Assembly (NCBI GenBank): GCA_015229115.1
Contig: JADGCH010000010.1
Coordinates: forward strand, 1 to 64,000
DNA: 64,000 nt
Direction: 5' to 3'
Origin: Magnetococcales bacterium
GTDB lineage: Bacteria > Pseudomonadota > Magnetococcia > Magnetococcales > JADGCH01
A program made the position numbers and the translations under genes. The notes below the pieces were generated by a model, which saw only the letters and a list, made by a program, of their open reading frames with translations, had not been told where the DNA came from and made no database searches. This document shows, piece by piece, positions 20,523-30,326 of the stretch (positions are counted from its first letter, which is position 1; every line of letters begins with the position of its first letter).

Positions 20523-22691
20523 ATGAAAGAAAATAGAATTATTGCGTTTTTATCGGTCCTGTTGGTTGCGGTGCTTGCACTCCTTTTTTATCGATTGCAA
20601 AGTCATAACTTCCTGCCTTCATCGCAACCAGACAGCACACTGGCTGTGCCACGTGTTCAACAGCTGCGCTTGGGAGTCAATATACCACCCGGAACGGCCC
20701 TCCATGCTGCCGCAGAACGGTTTGCCCAACGCGTGTCTGAAGGGAGTCGCCAGTCGATTCGCGTCTCGGTCTACCCTAATCAGCAGCTGGGCAACGATAG
20801 TCAGATGCTGGAAATGGCCAGGCGTGGTGAGCTGGACCTGGTATTGATCCCTACCGCCAAGTTCAGTACCGACCTACCAGAGATGCAGGTGTTCGATCTG
20901 CCCTTTTTCTTCCCGTCGCGGCAGCTGCTCTACCAGGCCTTGGATGGGCAATTGGGTACCACGCTGCTGGAACGGTTGGATGGCATTGGTTTGAAGGGTC
21001 TTGCCTTCTGGGAAAATGGTTTCAAACAATTGACAGCCAATCGTCCCTTGCTCGTGCCGACCGATTTCAAGGGTCTCAAAATGCGGGTGATGAACAGCCC
21101 CATTCTCCAGGATCAGTTTGAATCCCTGGGAGCTACCACCATTCCCATTGATTTTCATGCCACCCGCAAGGCGTTGGCCGATGGTGTGGTGGATGGACAG
21201 GAAAATCCTCTGGTGGCCATTGTCAGCATGAAATTTCACGAAGTCCAGTCACACATGACCATCAGCAACCACGCCTATCTTGGCTATGTCTTTGCCATGA
21301 GCAAAAACAGTTTCGACCGCCTGTCCAGCAAGGACCAGCACCTTATTGTGACGACAGCCCAGGCCTTGACCGCATGGGAACGCGACGAGACCAAACGCTA
21401 TGAAGAACAGTTCATGGACACTGCACGTCAAGCCGGCATGACGATTGACACACTCTCACCGGCTGAGTTGAAGACGTTTCAACAGGTACTGGATTACCTG
21501 CCGCGCAAGTTTGAGCAGACCATCGGAGCAGACATTATTTCCCAGGCGCAAGAGGTGATCGTTCAATATCTGGCCAGTCAGACACAGGCGCCAGAGATCC
21601 TGATTGGTCTTGATGCCGATCTTTCTGCCCAAAGCGCACGGGTTGGTTTGGCCTTCAAGCAGGGTATTCAGCTGGCCATCCATACCATCAATCAGCAAGG
21701 CGGCCTGCTGGGCCGTCCATTGCGCTTGATGGCCAGGGATCATCAGGGCGTGCCAGAACGTGGTCGCGCCAACATCCGTTTCTTTGCTGAACAACCCAAT
21801 CTGGTTGCCATTGTGGGCGGTAAGGACAGTACGGTGGTGCTGGAGGAGTTGGATCTGATCCACCAGTATCAGGTTCCGTACCTGATTCCATGGGCTGCCG
21901 CCAGCGAACTGACAGAAAACGGTCAACAACCCAATTTCGTCTTTCGTGTTAGCCTGAATGACCGTCTCGTGGTCCCATTTTTAACCGAAACGGCGGTACA
22001 GCGTGGCCATCCCATCGCCATTGTTTTTGAGAACAATGCCTGGGGACGACAGAACAACATGCGCATTCAGGCCTACCTGAGTCAACTGGGTCAACAACCA
22101 GCCGGTTCATGGCGTTTTCCACCCGGAGAGAAAAATTTTCAGGATACCATCACGCACATCGTGAGTACTCAGGCCAAATCAGTCTTGTTAATTGCTTCAC
22201 CTAAGAGTAGTCTGTCCTTTATCAAAGCGTTATCGAGTGCTGTACCGCACATGCCAATCCTATCCCATTGGGGACTGATTGGAGATGCCATGACGGCAGA
22301 AGAGATCAACCTGTTAGCCGACAAGAAAGTCGTTTTTCCACAAACCGTTTTGCTGTATCCTCCCGATACCGACCGGGTACAACGGCTACTGAGCGAATAC
22401 CGCAGCTATTTTCAGACGGATAGCCATGAATTAATCCGTTTTGGTGCTGGCTTTGTGCACGCCTACGACCTGATCCACTTGTTGGCGCAGGCTATTGTTG
22501 CAGGGAACAGTCTCGATCGGCAGGTGATACGCGCTGCATTGGAGCAGTTGCACGCTTATGAGGGTATCGTCAAAACCTATCACCAACCTTTTACCGCCGA
22601 GCGTCATGATGCTTTGGGGTTGGATGAATATCGCCTGGCTCAATTCCTGAAGACCGGCCACATCGTCTTAGTTGACCGTGTGGATCCATAG
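20523..22691 (+). CDS. Fusion of DctP-type and LivJ-type periplasmic binding domains
   Basis: A 722-residue exported protein with two solute-binding domains from unrelated transporter classes. Residues 7-24 form a signal anchor. Residues about 49-343 are a TRAP-transporter DctP domain: [17 protein letters not shown], the conserved ligand arginine in [10 protein letters not shown], and [11 protein letters not shown]. Residues about 358-715 are a Peripla_BP_6 (LivJ-like) domain: [38 protein letters not shown] and PYLIPWAAA. No TRAP permease (DctQM) or LivHMGF genes are near; instead a membrane sensor kinase starts eight bases after the stop. Inference: it is a ligand-sensing partner of that kinase. 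Ligands may be carboxylates and amino-acid-like molecules. Confidence 0.85.
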
Positions 22692-22698
22692 AAATGCC

Positions 22699-25600
22699 AT
22701 GCTGAGATCACAAAAAAAACTCAAAAACAGGCTAGTCATCCAGTTTTCTGTCTTCGTCAGCATTACCCTGCTGTTGGTGGTGAGTCTGATGACCTTGCGC
22801 ATGGCTCAGATGACCAGGGATCAGGTAATTTCCATCCACCGGGAACATGGTGCCGCCAAGCTCGTGCGGCTGAATGAACATGTGGATCATTTGGTTCAGA
22901 ATGTCAAACGGTTGGCGGGCAACAGCCTGGTCATCAATGCCATGGTCGATCGTGCCGGACGCAACCAGTATTTGCCTCAGCTGGTGGAGAATTTTGCTGA
23001 GGATCGCGAAATAGCAGCCCTGATGCTGGTCGATTATAACGGTAAACAGATTTTTATCAGCCGTGACGATGCACAACGTGACAACGACGCCAAATTTTTG
23101 CGCGAGACTTTGGGTATGAACCGCTCGGCTGTGCTTCTGAACGAAGATAAAACCAAGTTGGTCGTCAGTTATCCCATCAAGTTTTATGACACCACTCAGG
23201 GTGCTGTGGTGGTTTATTTCGATCTGGCAAAAGTGCTGCAGCGTATTTTCTCCGCCAGTGATAGTACGCATCAACTGTTTGACCGCGATACGCTGTTATT
23301 CACCCAACCAGGCCATGTCAGCCAGGATCCAATCTTCCTCAAAATTCAACCAGCTGTTCAGGATTACTGGACCCAGAAGCTCCAGCTTCATTTGGGTATT
23401 ACCATTGATCGAGCCACAATCCTTGGGCCGGTCTACAGCATTATTTTAGACACCGCGTTACTGGGCCTAGCGATCCTGATCAGTGCCATTCTACTGGCCT
23501 TCCGTATCGGTGGCAACATCGCCGATCCCATTCTGTTGCTCTGGCGCAAAATACACGATAGTGACGGTCGCAACACCGCTCTGCAGCTCTGTCCGGTCGG
23601 CACGGGTGACGAGCTGGAAGATCTGGCGGAGGCCTTTGAAAGAAGAACCAGAGAACTGTGGACTACCCAGCAGGAGCTGGAGCATCTGGTCGAACAAAAA
23701 AGCATCTCCCTGGCCCAGGTCAGCCAAAATCTGGCTCAGACTGAATCGCTGCTGGTAACGGCACTGGAGACCGTCGAAGATGGTTTTGCCATTTTTGATG
23801 ACCAGGATCGGCTCTACCTATGGAACAATGCCTTTCAACGGATCAATAAGGAGATTTCTGACTTTGCTGTCGCCGGTGTTTCTTACGAACAGATCTTGCG
23901 GACGGCCATCGATCGAGGACTGCTGCCAGAGGCTACGGGTCGTGAAGAGGACTGGTTGGCTCAACGCATGTCCGTGCATCGATCACCACGGGAGGCGTTT
24001 ATTGAGCAGAGGAATGATGATCAATGGCTGAGGATTGCTGAAAGCTCGATAGAACAGGGCTGGACCGTGGCCATTCTGTCGGACATCACGCAACAGCAAA
24101 GGTTAAAAGCCAGCCTGATGGAAGCTAAGGTGGTGGCAGAGTCGGCCGTTAAGGCCAAAAGTGTTTTTCTGGCCAACATGAGCCATGAAATTCGTACTCC
24201 CATGAATGCCATTATCGGTCTGAGCCACTTGTGTTTGCAGACCCAGTTAACCAACAAACAAAAAGACTATCTCTTCAAGATCCATAATTCTGGTACGGCG
24301 CTGCTGCGGATTATCAACGACATCCTCGATTTCTCCAAAATTGAGGCCGGTCGTCTCGATATGGAATCGGTCGAATTTTCCCTGGAGCAGGTGCTGAGTC
24401 AAACAGCCACCTTCATCTCCATGAAGGCGCATGAAAAACAACTGGAACTGGTGATCGAAACAGCCAGGAATGTACCCCTGTACCTGGTGGGTGATCCATT
24501 GCGATTGGGACAGATCCTGACCAACCTCGCCAACAATGCCGTTAAATTTACCGACCAGGGTGAGGTGGTTATTATCACAGAACAACTGGAACGTCGCAGC
24601 GAACAGGTACAGCTCCAGTTTACCGTGCGTGATAGTGGTATCGGCATGACATCCGCGCAACGGGCCCTGCTGTTTCAGGCCTTCAATCAGGCTGACTCAT
24701 CGACGAGCCGCAAATATGGTGGTACCGGTCTGGGCCTGACCATTTCCAAACGTCTGATTGAGATGATGGGCGGATCGGTGCGGGTTAACAGTGAGCCGGG
24801 AGTCGGATCAGAATTTATTTTTGATGTCTGGCTTGATGTGGCCCATGTCACGGTGGAACAACCCTTGTTACCCGATCGTCAGCTGCGTGATAGGAGGGTA
24901 CTGGTTGTCGATGACAACGACAGCGCCCGCAGAGTGATGGTAGATTTTCTGACCTCGCTGGACTTTAGGGTCAGCTCAGTCAAGAATGGTCAAGAGGCCA
25001 TGATTGCCGTTCAGGAAGCCGACACGGCTCACGATCCCTTTCATCTGGTGATGATGGATTACAGGATGCCAGAGCTGGATGGTATCGATACTACCCGCCG
25101 CATCAAACAGGATTTAGGCCTGAGCCAGGTCCCATCGGTCCTTATGGTCGCCGATTATGGTGATGAAAGTATTGTCAAACAGGCATCACAAGCGGCACAA
25201 GTGGATGGATTTCTGGTCAAACCCATCCATCAGAGTTCCCTGATGGAATCGATCATGGAGCTTTTTGGTCAAGTCAGAAAAGGTCACACACCTGATATCA
25301 AAACGCAGGAGAGTCAACAAACGGCTATGGCCGCATTGTCAGGAGCGCGGATTTTACTGGTCGAGGACAACGAGATCAATCAGCAGGTGGCGCAAGAGTT
25401 ACTGGAACAAGTCGGCATAACGATCACGATGGCCAATAACGGTCAGGAAGCCATTGATTTGATGATCATTAATGACTACGATGGTGTGCTGATGGATGTG
25501 CATATGCCAGTCATGGATGGCATGGAGGCCACCCGGGCCATTCGTCAGGATGGTCGTTGGGCCCACCTGCCTATTATCGCCATGACAGCCAATGCCATGG

Positions 25601-26418
25601 CGAGCGATCGCGATCAATGTCTGGCTGTTGGCATGCAGGATCATATCTCCAAGCCCGTCAACCCGTCAGATCTGTTTATCACGTTGTCCAGGTGGGTCAC
25701 GCCCGCCACACCACAGCTCATGCCAGTACTCCAGATCTCATCGCATGCTCCAGCCCAGTCGGATCAGGAGTCTGTACCGGTGATCCCAGGCCTGGATACG
25801 CAAGGTGGGCTGCGTCGTATGGCTGGTAACGTCAGCGGCTATCGGGCCCTGCTGACCAAATTCCGTACCAACCAGGGCCAGGCTGATCAGGCCATTCGGG
25901 CAGCATTGGTCGACAATGACCAAAATAGGGCGGCCATCCTGGCGCACACCTTAAAGGGTGTTGCTGCTACGGTGGGTGCCGAGGCACTACAGGCTGAAGC
26001 CTACGTGCTGGAACAGGGCATCAAAACGGGTTGGGCTGATCAGGCCGGATTACTGGGGTTGTTGGCAGGGGTATCAGCGCAATTGCAGCAAGTCTGCCAA
26101 GCCATTGATCGGGCCCTGCCCACGACTACCATGCCAGCCGTGCCGGACAGGGATGAATCCCAAGCCGAGATGGAGGACAAATCGGCCGAACGCAGCGCAC
26201 TACTGCGACAGATGGCCAGGCAACTGGCTATTTTTGATGCTGAGGTCGATGACACTATGGAATCGTTGCATCGTATCTCGACCACCTCCCGGACGTGGTT
26301 GGACTGGATCGGCAAAATGGAGCAGCTGCTGGCTGCTTATGACTTTGATGCAGCGATGGATTGTCTGACACAATTTGCTCATTCCATGAATATCGACTTA
26401 GGTATAACCGATGAATAA
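22699..26418 (+). CDS. Membrane-bound hybrid sensor histidine kinase with two REC and HPt domains
   Basis: A 1239-residue BarA/ArcB-style kinase. In order: TM1 (about 12-34), a periplasmic sensor domain of some 210 residues, TM2 (about 244-270), HAMP-like linker and coiled coil, PAS (about 350-460), HisKA with the phospho-His in [12 protein letters not shown] (near 496), HATPase with NNAVKF, DSGIGM and GGTGLGL, receiver 1 (VLVVDDND, acceptor in MMDYRMPE), receiver 2 (LLVEDNE, acceptor in LMDVHMPV), HPt with AHTLKG (near 1082), and a 75-residue helical tail. All phosphorelay residues are present. The in-frame ATG at 22699 is used; no good ribosome binding site is seen, so translation may depend on the upstream gene. 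Its stop overlaps the next gene by eight bases. Confidence 0.9.
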
Positions 26419-28843
26419 GGCCGTTGATAAACCATCCATACTCATTGTCGATGATTCTCCCGAGAACATTGACGTATTAAAAACAATACTGATCAGTGAC
26501 TATAGGGTACGGCCAGCTGTTAATGGTTCGTTGGCGTTGCGCATGGCCAGAATGGACCCCAAGCCCGATCTGATTCTGCTGGATATTGTCATGCCAGACA
26601 TGGATGGTCACCAAGTGTGTCGTTTGTTAAAAAGTGATCCGGAGACTCAGGACATCCCGGTGATCTTTGTGACTTCACGAGGTAATCAGTCCGATGAACT
26701 GGAAGGACTGCAACTGGGTGCGGTCGATTATATAACCAAGCCAATTAATCCGGCCATTGTCCAGCTCCGTGTCAGAACGCAACTAGAGCTGCGCGGCATT
26801 CACAGGGAACTGGCAGAGAAAAACCGCCGGTTGTACGAAATCAACGAGAAGTTGGCCGATAGCATGGAACAGCTTTCTGCCTCTGAGGATCGATTCCGTA
26901 GCCTGGTACAGACCATACCCGACATTGTCTATAAAATTGATGCTGAAGGACGGTTCACCTTCCTGAATAAGTCCATCGAACGTCTGGGCTATCACCAGTC
27001 GGATCTGATTGGACATCATTTTTCTGAAATGATCTACGATGCAGACGTTAAAACATCCAGTTTGGTCAATGTGATCGGTACCATTGGTGCTGGCACGGCC
27101 AACCCGGAACAGAAATTGTTCGATGAGAGACGTACCGGGCCACGCATGACGATGGGACTGGAGATTCGCCTGAGGACCAAGAGCGGTCAACCTGCTGAAT
27201 TTGTTGAGATAAAAAATATGGACGCTCCATCCATGGTCAATGTTGAGGTCAATTGTACCGGTCTTTATGGCGAGGTTGGTCTGGAGACCTCCTCCCGAAC
27301 ACGACAATACATCGGAACAGTCGGTGTCATTCGTGATATTACCGATCGGCAGAAAGCCCATCAATCCTTGCTGGAGGAGCGCAAGTTACTGCGACAACTC
27401 ATCAACGCCACACCCTTACCGATTTTTTTTATCGATGCTGCGGGAACACTGGTGTTTTGTAACCAAGCCTTTCTCAATTTCATGGCCATCGACAAAACAG
27501 GCGTAGAGCTGGGTAACCTGCAGCAGCTCTTTAACGCCGAGACCACTCAGCATCTTGATCGCCTGATTCGTGATGTATTGATTATGGAAGACGAAACACT
27601 GGTCAGTAATGAGCTGGAGATCGAGGACCGGGCTGGTACGGGCCACTTCGTCAAGGTTATTCTGACTCGGTTTCAGCATGGACAGGCCGCAACGTCCAAT
27701 GTCATTGGCGTGCTGGTCGATATAACCGAACAGAAAATCTCGGTGCGCGAGTTGACACGTGCCCGCAAAACGGCTGAGAAAATGGCCAGGAAGGCTGAAG
27801 AAGCCAGTCGTACCAAGGGAGATTTCATATCCAATATTAACCATGAAATTCGCACGCCTCTTAATGCTATTGTTGGTCTCACCTACCTTTGTTTGCAGAC
27901 GCAGCTAACCCCTCAACAACAGGATTATCTGTCATGTGTTCATAAGAATGCCAACGACTTGCTACACATCGTGAACAATGTGCTTGATTTTTCATCCTTT
28001 GATGAGGATCAATTGACGCTGGAAAAGGCCAAATTTATACTAGAGGATATATTTAAGATCCTTATCAAAAAATTTAGTGCTAAAAGTCAGAAAAAAGGCC
28101 TTCAACTGTTGGTGGATACCAAGGACAGCGTTGCCTGTCATTTGTACGGTGATGCCCACCGTCTGGAACAGGTATTGACCAATCTCATGAGTAACGCGGT
28201 TAAATTTACCTCATCCGGACAGGTCACCCTGCAGGCTGAAAAAGTGGCTGAAACAGAACAGGAGGCACAATTCCAGTTTGTTGTAAGCGATACCGGTATT
28301 GGTATGACGCAGCAGCAACTCGGTAACCTGTTCAGCGAATTTTTCCAGGGTGATCCCTCTGTCAATCGTGCGTATAATGGGGTTGGGCTCAGCTTGGCGC
28401 TCAGCAAGCGGCTGGTGGAGTTAATGGGTGGCACCCTTCACGTCGAAAGTAGTCCTGGACAGGGTAGCCGGTTCACCTTGACCAGTCGTTTTGAAAAAGT
28501 GGTTGAGTCATCGTCGGATCCGGCTGACCCGGTGGCCGAATCGGCTGAGTTGTCACCAGACGGCAGCGACCTAACTCCGACCGATCATTACGACTATTGT
28601 GCCATACAGGAACTGGGACCGCTGTTGCAGCAGGCCGCCCAGTTGTTGCTGCGTTTTGATGCTGGTGTCGACCAGGTTATGATGCAGATTGTGCCCCTGG
28701 TCCGGAGTGGGCCGCAGCGGCGCCATTTAGCCTGCGTGCAGCAGTCACTCAGAGACTACGATTATGACACCAGTCTGACAGCCTTGTGTCAGTGGGCAGC
28801 AGAAGAAGGGGTAACGATCGACCTGTCTGGAGAAACAACATGA
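26411..28843 (+). CDS. Soluble REC-PAS-PAS hybrid histidine kinase
   Basis: An 810-residue kinase without membrane segments. Receiver at residues 10-125 (LIVDDSPEN, acceptor in [11 protein letters not shown]), coiled coil, PAS 1 (about 160-310, with an insertion), PAS 2 (about 322-430), HisKA with [12 protein letters not shown] (near 477), and HATPase ([15 protein letters not shown]). The glycine-rich G2 box reads GVGLSLAL, not the usual GTGLGL, so catalysis may be altered. It has no C-terminal receiver or HPt, but ends with a tail resembling that of the kinase before it (both with FDA-VD, an YDYD/YDFD element and a final DL). Likely takes phosphate from the upstream kinase's HPt on its N-terminal receiver. 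Confidence 0.88.
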
Positions 28844-29940
28844 GCCAGCCCCTACCAGATAAACCCACCATCCTGATCGTCGACGATACGCCAGAAAATC
28901 TCAGTATTCTAAAGGGGGCCCTATCCGACGATTATGCCGTCCGGCTGGCCACCAATGGCCACATTGCCCTGCGGGCTGTCTCCATCACGCCCCAGCCCGA
29001 TCTGATCCTGCTAGACATCATGATGCCGGGTATCGATGGCTATGAGATCTGTCGCAGACTGAAGGCCGATCCATCTACGCAGCATATTCCGGTCATCTTT
29101 GTCACAGCCATGAGCAAGGATACCGATGAACTGATGGGATTGAGGACTGGTGCCATCGATTACATCACCAAACCCTTCAGCATTCCCATTGTACAGGCTC
29201 GTGTTAAAACACATATCCTGCTCAATAACCAGAAGAGACTGCTGGAAAATCAGGTAGCCGAACGCACCGAACAGCTACAGAAGCGTAACCGGGAACTGGA
29301 TGAGCGCACCGAGCAGTTGCAAAGACGTAACCGGGAACTGGAAGAGACCCGCTTGGAGATGATACGCCAGCTCGGGCGGGCGGCCGAATATCGGGACAAC
29401 GAGACCGGCATGCATGTCATCCGCATGAGTCATTATGTCCGACTGCTGGCCATCGAGTCGGGTTATGGCCCGGCTGATGCCGAGCAACTGATGTATGCCG
29501 CCATGATGCACGATATCGGTAAAATCGGCATTCCCGATCACACTCTGCTTAAACCGGGCAAACTGACTGACGAAGAGTTCGAGATCATCAAGACTCACCC
29601 GGAAATCGGCTATCAGATTATTGGGCAACAGAGTTCCGAGCTGTTACAGAAGGCCGCCACCATTGCCTATACCCATCATGAAAAATGGAATGGTCGCGGC
29701 TATCCGCAGGGACTGTGCGGCGCTGAAATTCCCATCGAGGGCCGGATGACCGCTATTGCCGACGTCTTCGACGCTTTAACCTGCAAGCGCCCCTACAAGG
29801 AGCCCTGGCCGGTTGATCGCGCCCTGGAACTGATTGCCAACGAGACGGGCGAGCATTTTGATCCAATACTGGCCCCTTTGTTCATACAGCTGAAACCGGC
29901 CCTGATGACCATCATGGAGCAGCATCAGGATGGGGAGTAA
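28840..29940 (+). CDS. Response regulator with HD-GYP phosphodiesterase domain
   Basis: A 366-residue RpfG-type protein. Receiver (LIVDDTPEN, acceptor Asp in LLDIMMPGIDG, Lys in YITKPF), a coiled-coil linker (about 135-172) and an HD-GYP domain: RAAEYRDNETGMHV, MHDIGKIGIPD, HPEIGYQI, HHEKWNGRGYPQGL and DVFDAL. The metal ligands and the GYP motif are intact, so it should hydrolyse cyclic di-GMP to pGpG or GMP. The ATG overlaps the kinase stop (ATGA) with GGAG ten bases upstream. As the last gene of the chain it is the probable output: ligand sensing would lower c-di-GMP, favouring motility. Confidence 0.93.
   Translation: MSQPLPDKPTILIVDDTPENLSILKGALSDDYAVRLATNGHIALRAVSITPQPDLILLDIMMPGIDGYEICRRLKADPSTQHIPVIFVTAMSKDTDELMGLRTGAIDYITKPFSIPIVQARVKTHILLNNQKRLLENQVAERTEQLQKRNRELDERTEQLQRRNRELEETRLEMIRQLGRAAEYRDNETGMHVIRMSHYVRLLAIESGYGPADAEQLMYAAMMHDIGKIGIPDHTLLKPGKLTDEEFEIIKTHPEIGYQIIGQQSSELLQKAATIAYTHHEKWNGRGYPQGLCGAEIPIEGRMTAIADVFDALTCKRPYKEPWPVDRALELIANETGEHFDPILAPLFIQLKPALMTIMEQHQDGE
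29260..29343 (+). repeat. Two tandem 42-bp units in the coiled-coil linker of the HD-GYP protein
   Basis: Units 29260-29301 and 29302-29343 encode ERTEQLQKRNRELD and ERTEQLQRRNRELE, two nearly identical 14-residue (two-heptad) stretches. The DNA units differ at a few mostly silent sites. This lengthens the signalling helix between receiver and HD-GYP by exactly two heptads, keeping phase. Confidence 0.85.
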
Positions 29941-29942
29941 CA

Positions 29943-30326
29943 TCATGATGATTGCCAAAGAGTCAGTGGACTCAGAATGGTCAATCCGTGGATCCATTTG
30001 AAATCTTCAACGTTTGCGGTTGCCAATACCAAACGATGTTCCATTGCGGTAGCGGCAATCAGGGAATCACCTAGCGATAGTCTGCGCTGCTGGCGCAATT
30101 GGATAGCCTTTTCAAACGTGATCGTTGTTGGGTAGATGATTTTCAGGCAGTCTAGAACGATTTGGATGGCTTGGTGTTCCGCACCTATCAGTCGATGAAA
30201 GCCGAGAGACTCGACCCGGCTGATCACAGAGTAGTAGGCGGGCTGTTGTTGAATCAGCCAGCTTCGTAGGGGAGCGTAAGCGGGTCGTACGGCGTAAACA
30301 ATCAGGTTGGTGTCGACCAGCACCAA
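29943..30326 (-). CDS. vapC: PIN-domain ribonuclease (VapC-like toxin)
   Basis: A 127-residue PIN domain protein. Acidic residues typical of the fold are at LVDTNLIVYA (first Asp), SRVESLGF (Glu), LSLGDSLIAATA (Asp) and TANVEDFKWI (Asp). VapC toxins cut tRNA or rRNA. The start is TTG at 30326, directly after the antitoxin stop, with a GTG one codon later as alternative. Paired with the upstream antitoxin gene; tail-to-tail with the HD-GYP gene, two bases apart. Confidence 0.82.
   Translation of the reverse strand: MVLVDTNLIVYAVRPAYAPLRSWLIQQQPAYYSVISRVESLGFHRLIGAEHQAIQIVLDCLKIIYPTTITFEKAIQLRQQRRLSLGDSLIAATAMEHRLVLATANVEDFKWIHGLTILSPLTLWQSS

Follow-up and report, generated by a model that had tools for sequence, protein, structure and literature searches.

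A recurrent DctP-Peripla_BP_6 fusion encoded beside dCache transducers, a probable periplasmic co-receptor

The window analyzed here, a 64-kb stretch of DNA from a Magnetococcales bacterium, contains a gene in which the solute-binding domains of two transporter classes, DctP of the TRAP transporters and Peripla_BP_6, are encoded in one polypeptide directly before a sensor kinase gene. An earlier note, made from the sequence alone, had proposed a two-ligand receptor feeding that kinase. The locus thus raises the question of whether the fusion is genuine, whether it serves transport or signaling, and whether both of its domains bind a ligand. The features of the fusion gene are the following.

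20523..22691 (+): DctP-Peripla_BP_6 fusion, 722 aa (single ORF, Pfam, AlphaFold2)
20535..20591 (+): N-terminal hydrophobic helix, residues 5-23 (hydropathy, model helix 2-28)
20679..21515 (+): DctP (TRAP solute-binding) domain, residues 53-331 (PF03480, 270 bits; PDB relatives)
21084..21086 (+): R188, carboxylate-binding residue equivalent to SiaP Arg147 (alignment)
21597..22574 (+): Peripla_BP_6 domain, residues 359-684 (PF13458, 133 bits)

The frame at 20523-22691 runs through 722 codons without interruption, and both Pfam domains are full length, DctP at residues 53-331 (270 bits against a cut-off of 23.4, E 3e-80) and Peripla_BP_6 at residues 359-684 (133 bits against 31.7, E 2e-38), which bears out the claim that the two are joined in one chain. 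An AlphaFold2 model made with 26 relatives as input was confident over nearly the full length (pLDDT 90.8, pTM 0.88). In the model, residues 2-28 form a helix and residues 29-42 a tether of low confidence; the DctP and Peripla_BP_6 folds follow, connected by a helix at 336-353. The best 50 structural matches of this model in the PDB were single DctP-type proteins covering the DctP half only. Hydropathy revealed one hydrophobic segment, at residues 5-23; as neither a cleavage site nor a lipobox was evident in it, the N-terminal helix is probably an uncleaved membrane anchor.

The concern, voiced in the earlier note itself, that two separate genes had been joined by a sequencing error proved unfounded. 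The same architecture in one frame was found at 56 distinct loci (57 records, L035 and L074 being one contig) in independent assemblies that include cultured isolates, so an assembly, frameshift or sequencing error could be ruled out, and at one fusion locus only (L053) is the frame broken into two that overlap. The fusion is present in 26 of 61 genomes, namely the window's own and relatives, all of one order. A scan of GTDB genomes found carriers in Magnetococcales, Zoogloea, Dechloromonas, Methylomonas, Methylobacter, Rhodoferax, Comamonadaceae, a SAR324 bacterium, Desulfobulbaceae and Sulfuricurvum; among the carriers are several cultured isolates (Dechloromonas, Zoogloea and Methylomonas). 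In a draw of 399 genomes from the phylum, no full fusion was found outside the order Magnetococcales, and the architecture is therefore sparse beyond that order. No all-in-one fusion that includes the kinase was seen in the genomes searched. A short version was observed on contig 79 of G008 (L087/L122), where a 562-aa fusion has an internal deletion in Peripla_BP_6 (model positions ~114-260 missing), with the DctP domain intact and the kinase pairing kept.

The gene that follows the fusion in the window encodes the partner kinase.

22672..26418 (+): partner hybrid histidine kinase, likely start ATG 22699, or TTG 22672 (Pfam, motifs)

Its layout is dCache, HAMP-like linker, PAS, HisKA, HATPase, REC, REC and Hpt, with two hydrophobic segments. 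The sensor region was predicted by AlphaFold2 to adopt a dCache fold, that is, a double PAS-like fold (pLDDT 84.8), and Foldseek matched the model to the dCache domains of DctB and of the chemoreceptor PctA; its Pfam dCache_1 score of 21 bits is under the cut-off of 45. At 54 of the 54 loci where the next gene could be read, that gene has the orientation of the fusion and codes for a transducer whose transmembrane sensor region is homologous, and at the two remaining loci of the 56 the fusion stands at a contig end. The commonest arrangement, found in 25 of 55 records, is a 4-base overlap between fusion stop and partner start, and 53 of the 55 have no more than 60 bases between the two genes. 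Among the 61 genomes, the sensor region occurs in 28, the fusion in 26 and both in 25; the single fusion genome without the sensor region has its fusion at a contig end. The sensor region is paired with a Peripla_BP_6-only gene in G011, and in G003 and G036 no binding-protein gene adjoins that of the sensor kinase, whose dCache domain may therefore be a sensor by itself.

The partner output is mostly a hybrid histidine kinase, with a PAS/GAF kinase in Desulfobulbaceae and a relative. In Sulfuricurvum (L063, 10094-12322, +) the partner is a dCache-GGDEF-EAL protein. The partners at L094-L100 consist of the dCache region and PAS domains with no recognizable kinase core, and a separate REC-HisKA-HATPase gene comes after them; their C-terminus is Hpt-like, and its phospho-accepting histidine seems, as read from the sequences, to be lost. 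The view that the fusion adjoins a kinase, and the suggestion that all matches might neighbor hybrid kinases, therefore hold only in part: a dCache transducer is next in 54/54, but the output is not always a hybrid kinase, as Sulfuricurvum and L094-L100 illustrate. Since the output varies while the pairing persists, the fixed unit is the fusion plus a dCache transducer, not the fusion plus a kinase. The divergences of the parts are correlated (r 0.77-0.91 overall). We discarded this correlation as proof of contact, because shared ancestry or plain co-inheritance alone yields the same.

A role in transport was examined with the DctM, DctQ and Liv permease sequences of the window's own genome as queries. 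Relatives of TRAP or Liv permeases were found neither at any fusion locus nor in the 64-kb window, in line with the statement that no permease of either class lies nearby; the other finding named as capable of overturning the proposal, a TRAP or ABC permease using the fusion, was likewise not encountered at these loci. As a positive control, the DctM query matched the free-DctP loci L065, L066, L069-L073 and L115; the Liv queries matched only the Liv operon of the own genome and are thus a weaker control. Three fusion-carrying genomes that are 97-100% complete (G004, G013 and G028) gave no DctM match at E 1e-30. The own genome encodes DctM and DctQ with no DctP gene adjoining (L114, contig 140, 5695-7832, -), one free DctP near the end of contig 96, and one Liv operon on contig 105, which includes a binding protein gene (L106), and none of them is near the fusion. 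Judged by genomic context, the fusion does not look like a TRAP transporter subunit, which works with DctQ/DctM, and it has neither the equivalog score nor the Liv permease neighbors of a LivJ protein. With the own permease queries finding no match at the fusion loci and the positive controls working, a TRAP or ABC transport role was discarded.

The DctP half scores 247 bits with TIGR00787 (cut-off 175), and its closest PDB relatives are 4ovs, 4p47 and 4xeq. Arg147 of SiaP is found in 98% of DctP proteins and is required for tight carboxylate binding (PMC4646407). Residue 186 of the fusion aligns with SiaP 145, which places 188 opposite 147 if the alignment is ungapped. R188 is conserved in all 36 main-clade fusions, the window protein included, so the DctP ligand contact appears intact, as first noticed; the ENP motif downstream is equally invariant (36/36). 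The DctP domain is also the most conserved part in this clade, with a mean distance of 0.39, compared with 0.58 in Peripla_BP_6 and 0.61 in the sensor. The divergent Magnetococcales groups L086-L093 and L094-L100 have lost the equivalent arginine in 14/14 members; the alignment of these groups has 25-41% identity, but their DctP domain is still recognized. Within L086-L092, DctP is the least conserved part (0.48 against 0.33 and 0.27). As the carboxylate-binding arginine is gone, these divergent groups are probably not two-ligand receptors, and the description "two-ligand" is unlikely to fit every member. The similarity in sequence to the C4-dicarboxylate DctP proteins PA0884, PA5167 and 4o94 suggests that the ligand of the DctP half is an organic acid, C4-dicarboxylate-like. 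The DctP halves of the fusions form one clade in a tree that has a small sample of free DctP proteins and some long branches, and we did not take this clade as establishing a single origin of the fusion.

For the other half, the term "LivJ-like" used in the earlier note is right at the level of the Peripla_BP_6 family but not beyond it, as LivJ and urea models gave 27-31 bits against cut-offs of ~480-495 (27 against 477 for the LivJ-type model PRK15404). This half scores 350-430 bits against single-domain proteins encoded directly upstream of dCache kinases (L101-L103, L116-L118), and 86 bits against the Liv-operon binding protein of its own genome. W457, W507, H582, W583 and Y626 are at or near the expected Peripla_BP_6 pocket, which we infer to be aromatic; the first four are mostly common to the fusions and the receptor-type single proteins, and the Liv-operon protein is without them. 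Because it is closer to the transducer-paired single proteins and shares these residues with them, the Peripla_BP_6 half belongs, by sequence, to a family of receptor type whose members also occur with no DctP domain. At L094-L100 the aromatic positions are largely changed as well. Of the DctP-less proteins related to the C-terminal half, seven of seven are encoded immediately upstream of a transducer whose sensor domain is homologous. The DctP domain looks like an addition to a receptor-type Peripla_BP_6 protein, though the pattern may reflect one gain or later losses of it; in the Peripla_BP_6 tree the DctP-less L103 falls within a weak group, so a loss of DctP in that lineage is possible.

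Two further arrangements were seen with this domain. At L121 (4566-8574, +) a Peripla_BP_6-only gene precedes one for a dCache-PAS-GGDEF protein; this variant lacks DctP and has a diguanylate cyclase output. On contig 167 of the own genome (L107, 1439-4621, -), a 1061-aa protein has the layout Peripla_BP_6-PAS-HisKA-HATPase-REC-Hpt, with no signal peptide or membrane segment evident by eye and a REC-HD-GYP-like gene following it; this may be a hybrid kinase carrying an AmiC-like binding domain located in the cytoplasm.

We consider it likely that the fusion is a membrane-tethered periplasmic co-receptor for signaling and not a transporter subunit. As a signaling gene adjoins it at 54/54 loci, it probably reports on outside solutes instead of importing them. 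The receptor-type Peripla_BP_6 domain would bind a small molecule, and the fused DctP domain probably binds one too. Ligand would close one or both domains of the tethered protein in the periplasm, and the dCache domain of the downstream transducer would detect the loaded fusion and alter the cytoplasmic output. We infer the contact between fusion and dCache domain, the identity of the ligands and the use of both sites. A more specific version, in which one receptor integrates an organic acid (DctP) with a chemically different external compound (Peripla_BP_6, aromatic pocket) as an AND/OR gate before the dCache transducer, one input having been lost in some Magnetococcales groups, is put forward tentatively, as we find it plausible and slightly doubtful at once.

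The Peripla_BP_6 domain could instead sense and contact the kinase by itself, with DctP being a spacer, a dimerization or structural part, or a leftover. The existence of Peripla_BP_6-only proteins paired with the same kind of transducer fits this model, as do the divergent members, which keep the pairing after losing the ligand arginine (14/14) and among which, in L086-L092, DctP is the part that varies most. Such a model is nevertheless unlikely, as invariant R188 and ENP residues in a DctP domain that is the best conserved part of the main clade would be unexpected for a spacer. We find it similarly improbable that the kinase dCache domain binds a ligand of its own, as in DctB-type sensors, and that the fusion merely modulates its response or buffers the periplasmic ligand. 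The dCache model does resemble the ligand-binding domains of DctB and chemoreceptors, and the kinases of G003 and G036 lack an adjacent binding protein. However, 25 of the 28 sensor-positive genomes carry the fusion, and G011 has the Peripla_BP_6-only gene; an optional helper would disappear more often.

That the fusion scavenges for the TRAP (DctQM, contig 140) or Liv (contig 105) transporter of its own genome, with the kinase regulating uptake, we regard as very improbable. A DctQM pair without an adjoining DctP gene and a Liv operon are indeed available in that genome, but so are a separate free DctP on contig 96 and, in the Liv operon, the binding protein L106. Moreover, no permease relative occurs at the fusion loci, near-complete fusion genomes have no DctM, and the pairing with a dCache transducer is invariant.

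At the window locus, two genes downstream of the kinase may extend the signaling chain.

26411..28843 (+): soluble REC-PAS-PAS-HisKA-HATPase protein (Pfam; no hydrophobic segment)
28786..29940 (+): REC-HD-GYP response regulator (Pfam; motifs HDIGK and HHEKWNGRGYP)

The gene at 26411-28843 overlaps the kinase gene and is the next one in a likely operon; the REC-HD-GYP protein is a probable c-di-GMP phosphodiesterase output. The putative phospho-sites of the kinase are H505 (in SHEIRTP) and H1092 of the Hpt domain. Phosphate would be predicted to pass from H505 to the receiver domains, to H1092 and on to the REC-HD-GYP protein, with the soluble REC-PAS-PAS kinase as a possible intermediate in the last step. 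Such a His-Asp-Hpt phosphorelay could end by lowering c-di-GMP. Because only 13 of the 57 fusion records have an HD-GYP gene nearby (within 8.5 kb), c-di-GMP as a universal output was dropped and is retained for the window locus and some others. Directly after the REC-HD-GYP gene, a small PIN-domain-like, toxin-like ORF was noticed by eye (29943-30326, -).

Co-sensing by binding proteins is known already. For the fused two-domain form, no description was found in the open-access literature, which agrees with the initial impression that the combination is not a described system; a term search of a survey that lists the binding proteins of model bacteria (PMC9602780) gave no mention of fused ones. 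Our results suggest that a signaling receptor conserved in several phyla was made by withdrawing binding proteins from two transporter classes and joining them. If both domains bind, this would be a natural two-input sensor upstream of a single transducer, and the natural variants without the DctP domain or without the ligand arginine make signal integration directly testable. There is also a risk for annotation, as the domains alone easily earn the fusion the label of a TRAP or ABC transport subunit.

In TorT-TorS and LuxP-LuxQ, a separate periplasmic binding protein with no transport role is read by a transmembrane hybrid kinase. The fusion system is similar in that the binding protein is encoded with a transmembrane hybrid kinase, and conservation of the binding protein beside a transmembrane transducer, typical of the TorT/LuxP type, was found at 54/54 loci. 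TorT and LuxP, however, each have a single binding domain, from a different family, and are read by other sensor domains, whereas the fusion is tethered and carries two unrelated domains. DctB of Bacillus subtilis belongs to the DctP family. This extracytoplasmic C4-dicarboxylate binding protein is a co-receptor of the kinase DctS (PMC6978683). The DctB-DctS-DctR system, which the Anoxybacillus locus L065 (DctP and an sCache kinase) resembles, has a single-domain binding protein, an sCache-type kinase and the transporter DctA in the sensor unit, whereas the fusion has a second binding domain and no transporter. In Bordetella, BctC, a solute-binding protein of a tripartite transporter, contacts the sensor kinase BctE (PMC5812351); BctC is of the TctC family and serves uptake too, whereas the fusion has no permease. 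TAXI-GltS of Bordetella pertussis is another case of a TRAP-type binding protein that has parted from TRAP permeases and gained a new, translationally coupled partner (PMC12344293), but that partner is a symporter, hence transport, and the partner of the fusion is a transducer. The loci L101-L103, L116-L118 and L121 share with the fusion system the homologous C-terminal half, the W457/W507/H582 signature and the homologous sensor, and differ in having no DctP domain. We found no experimental description of such a pair either, and a Peripla_BP_6-only gene with a dCache kinase or GGDEF partner appears to be a simpler form of the fusion system.
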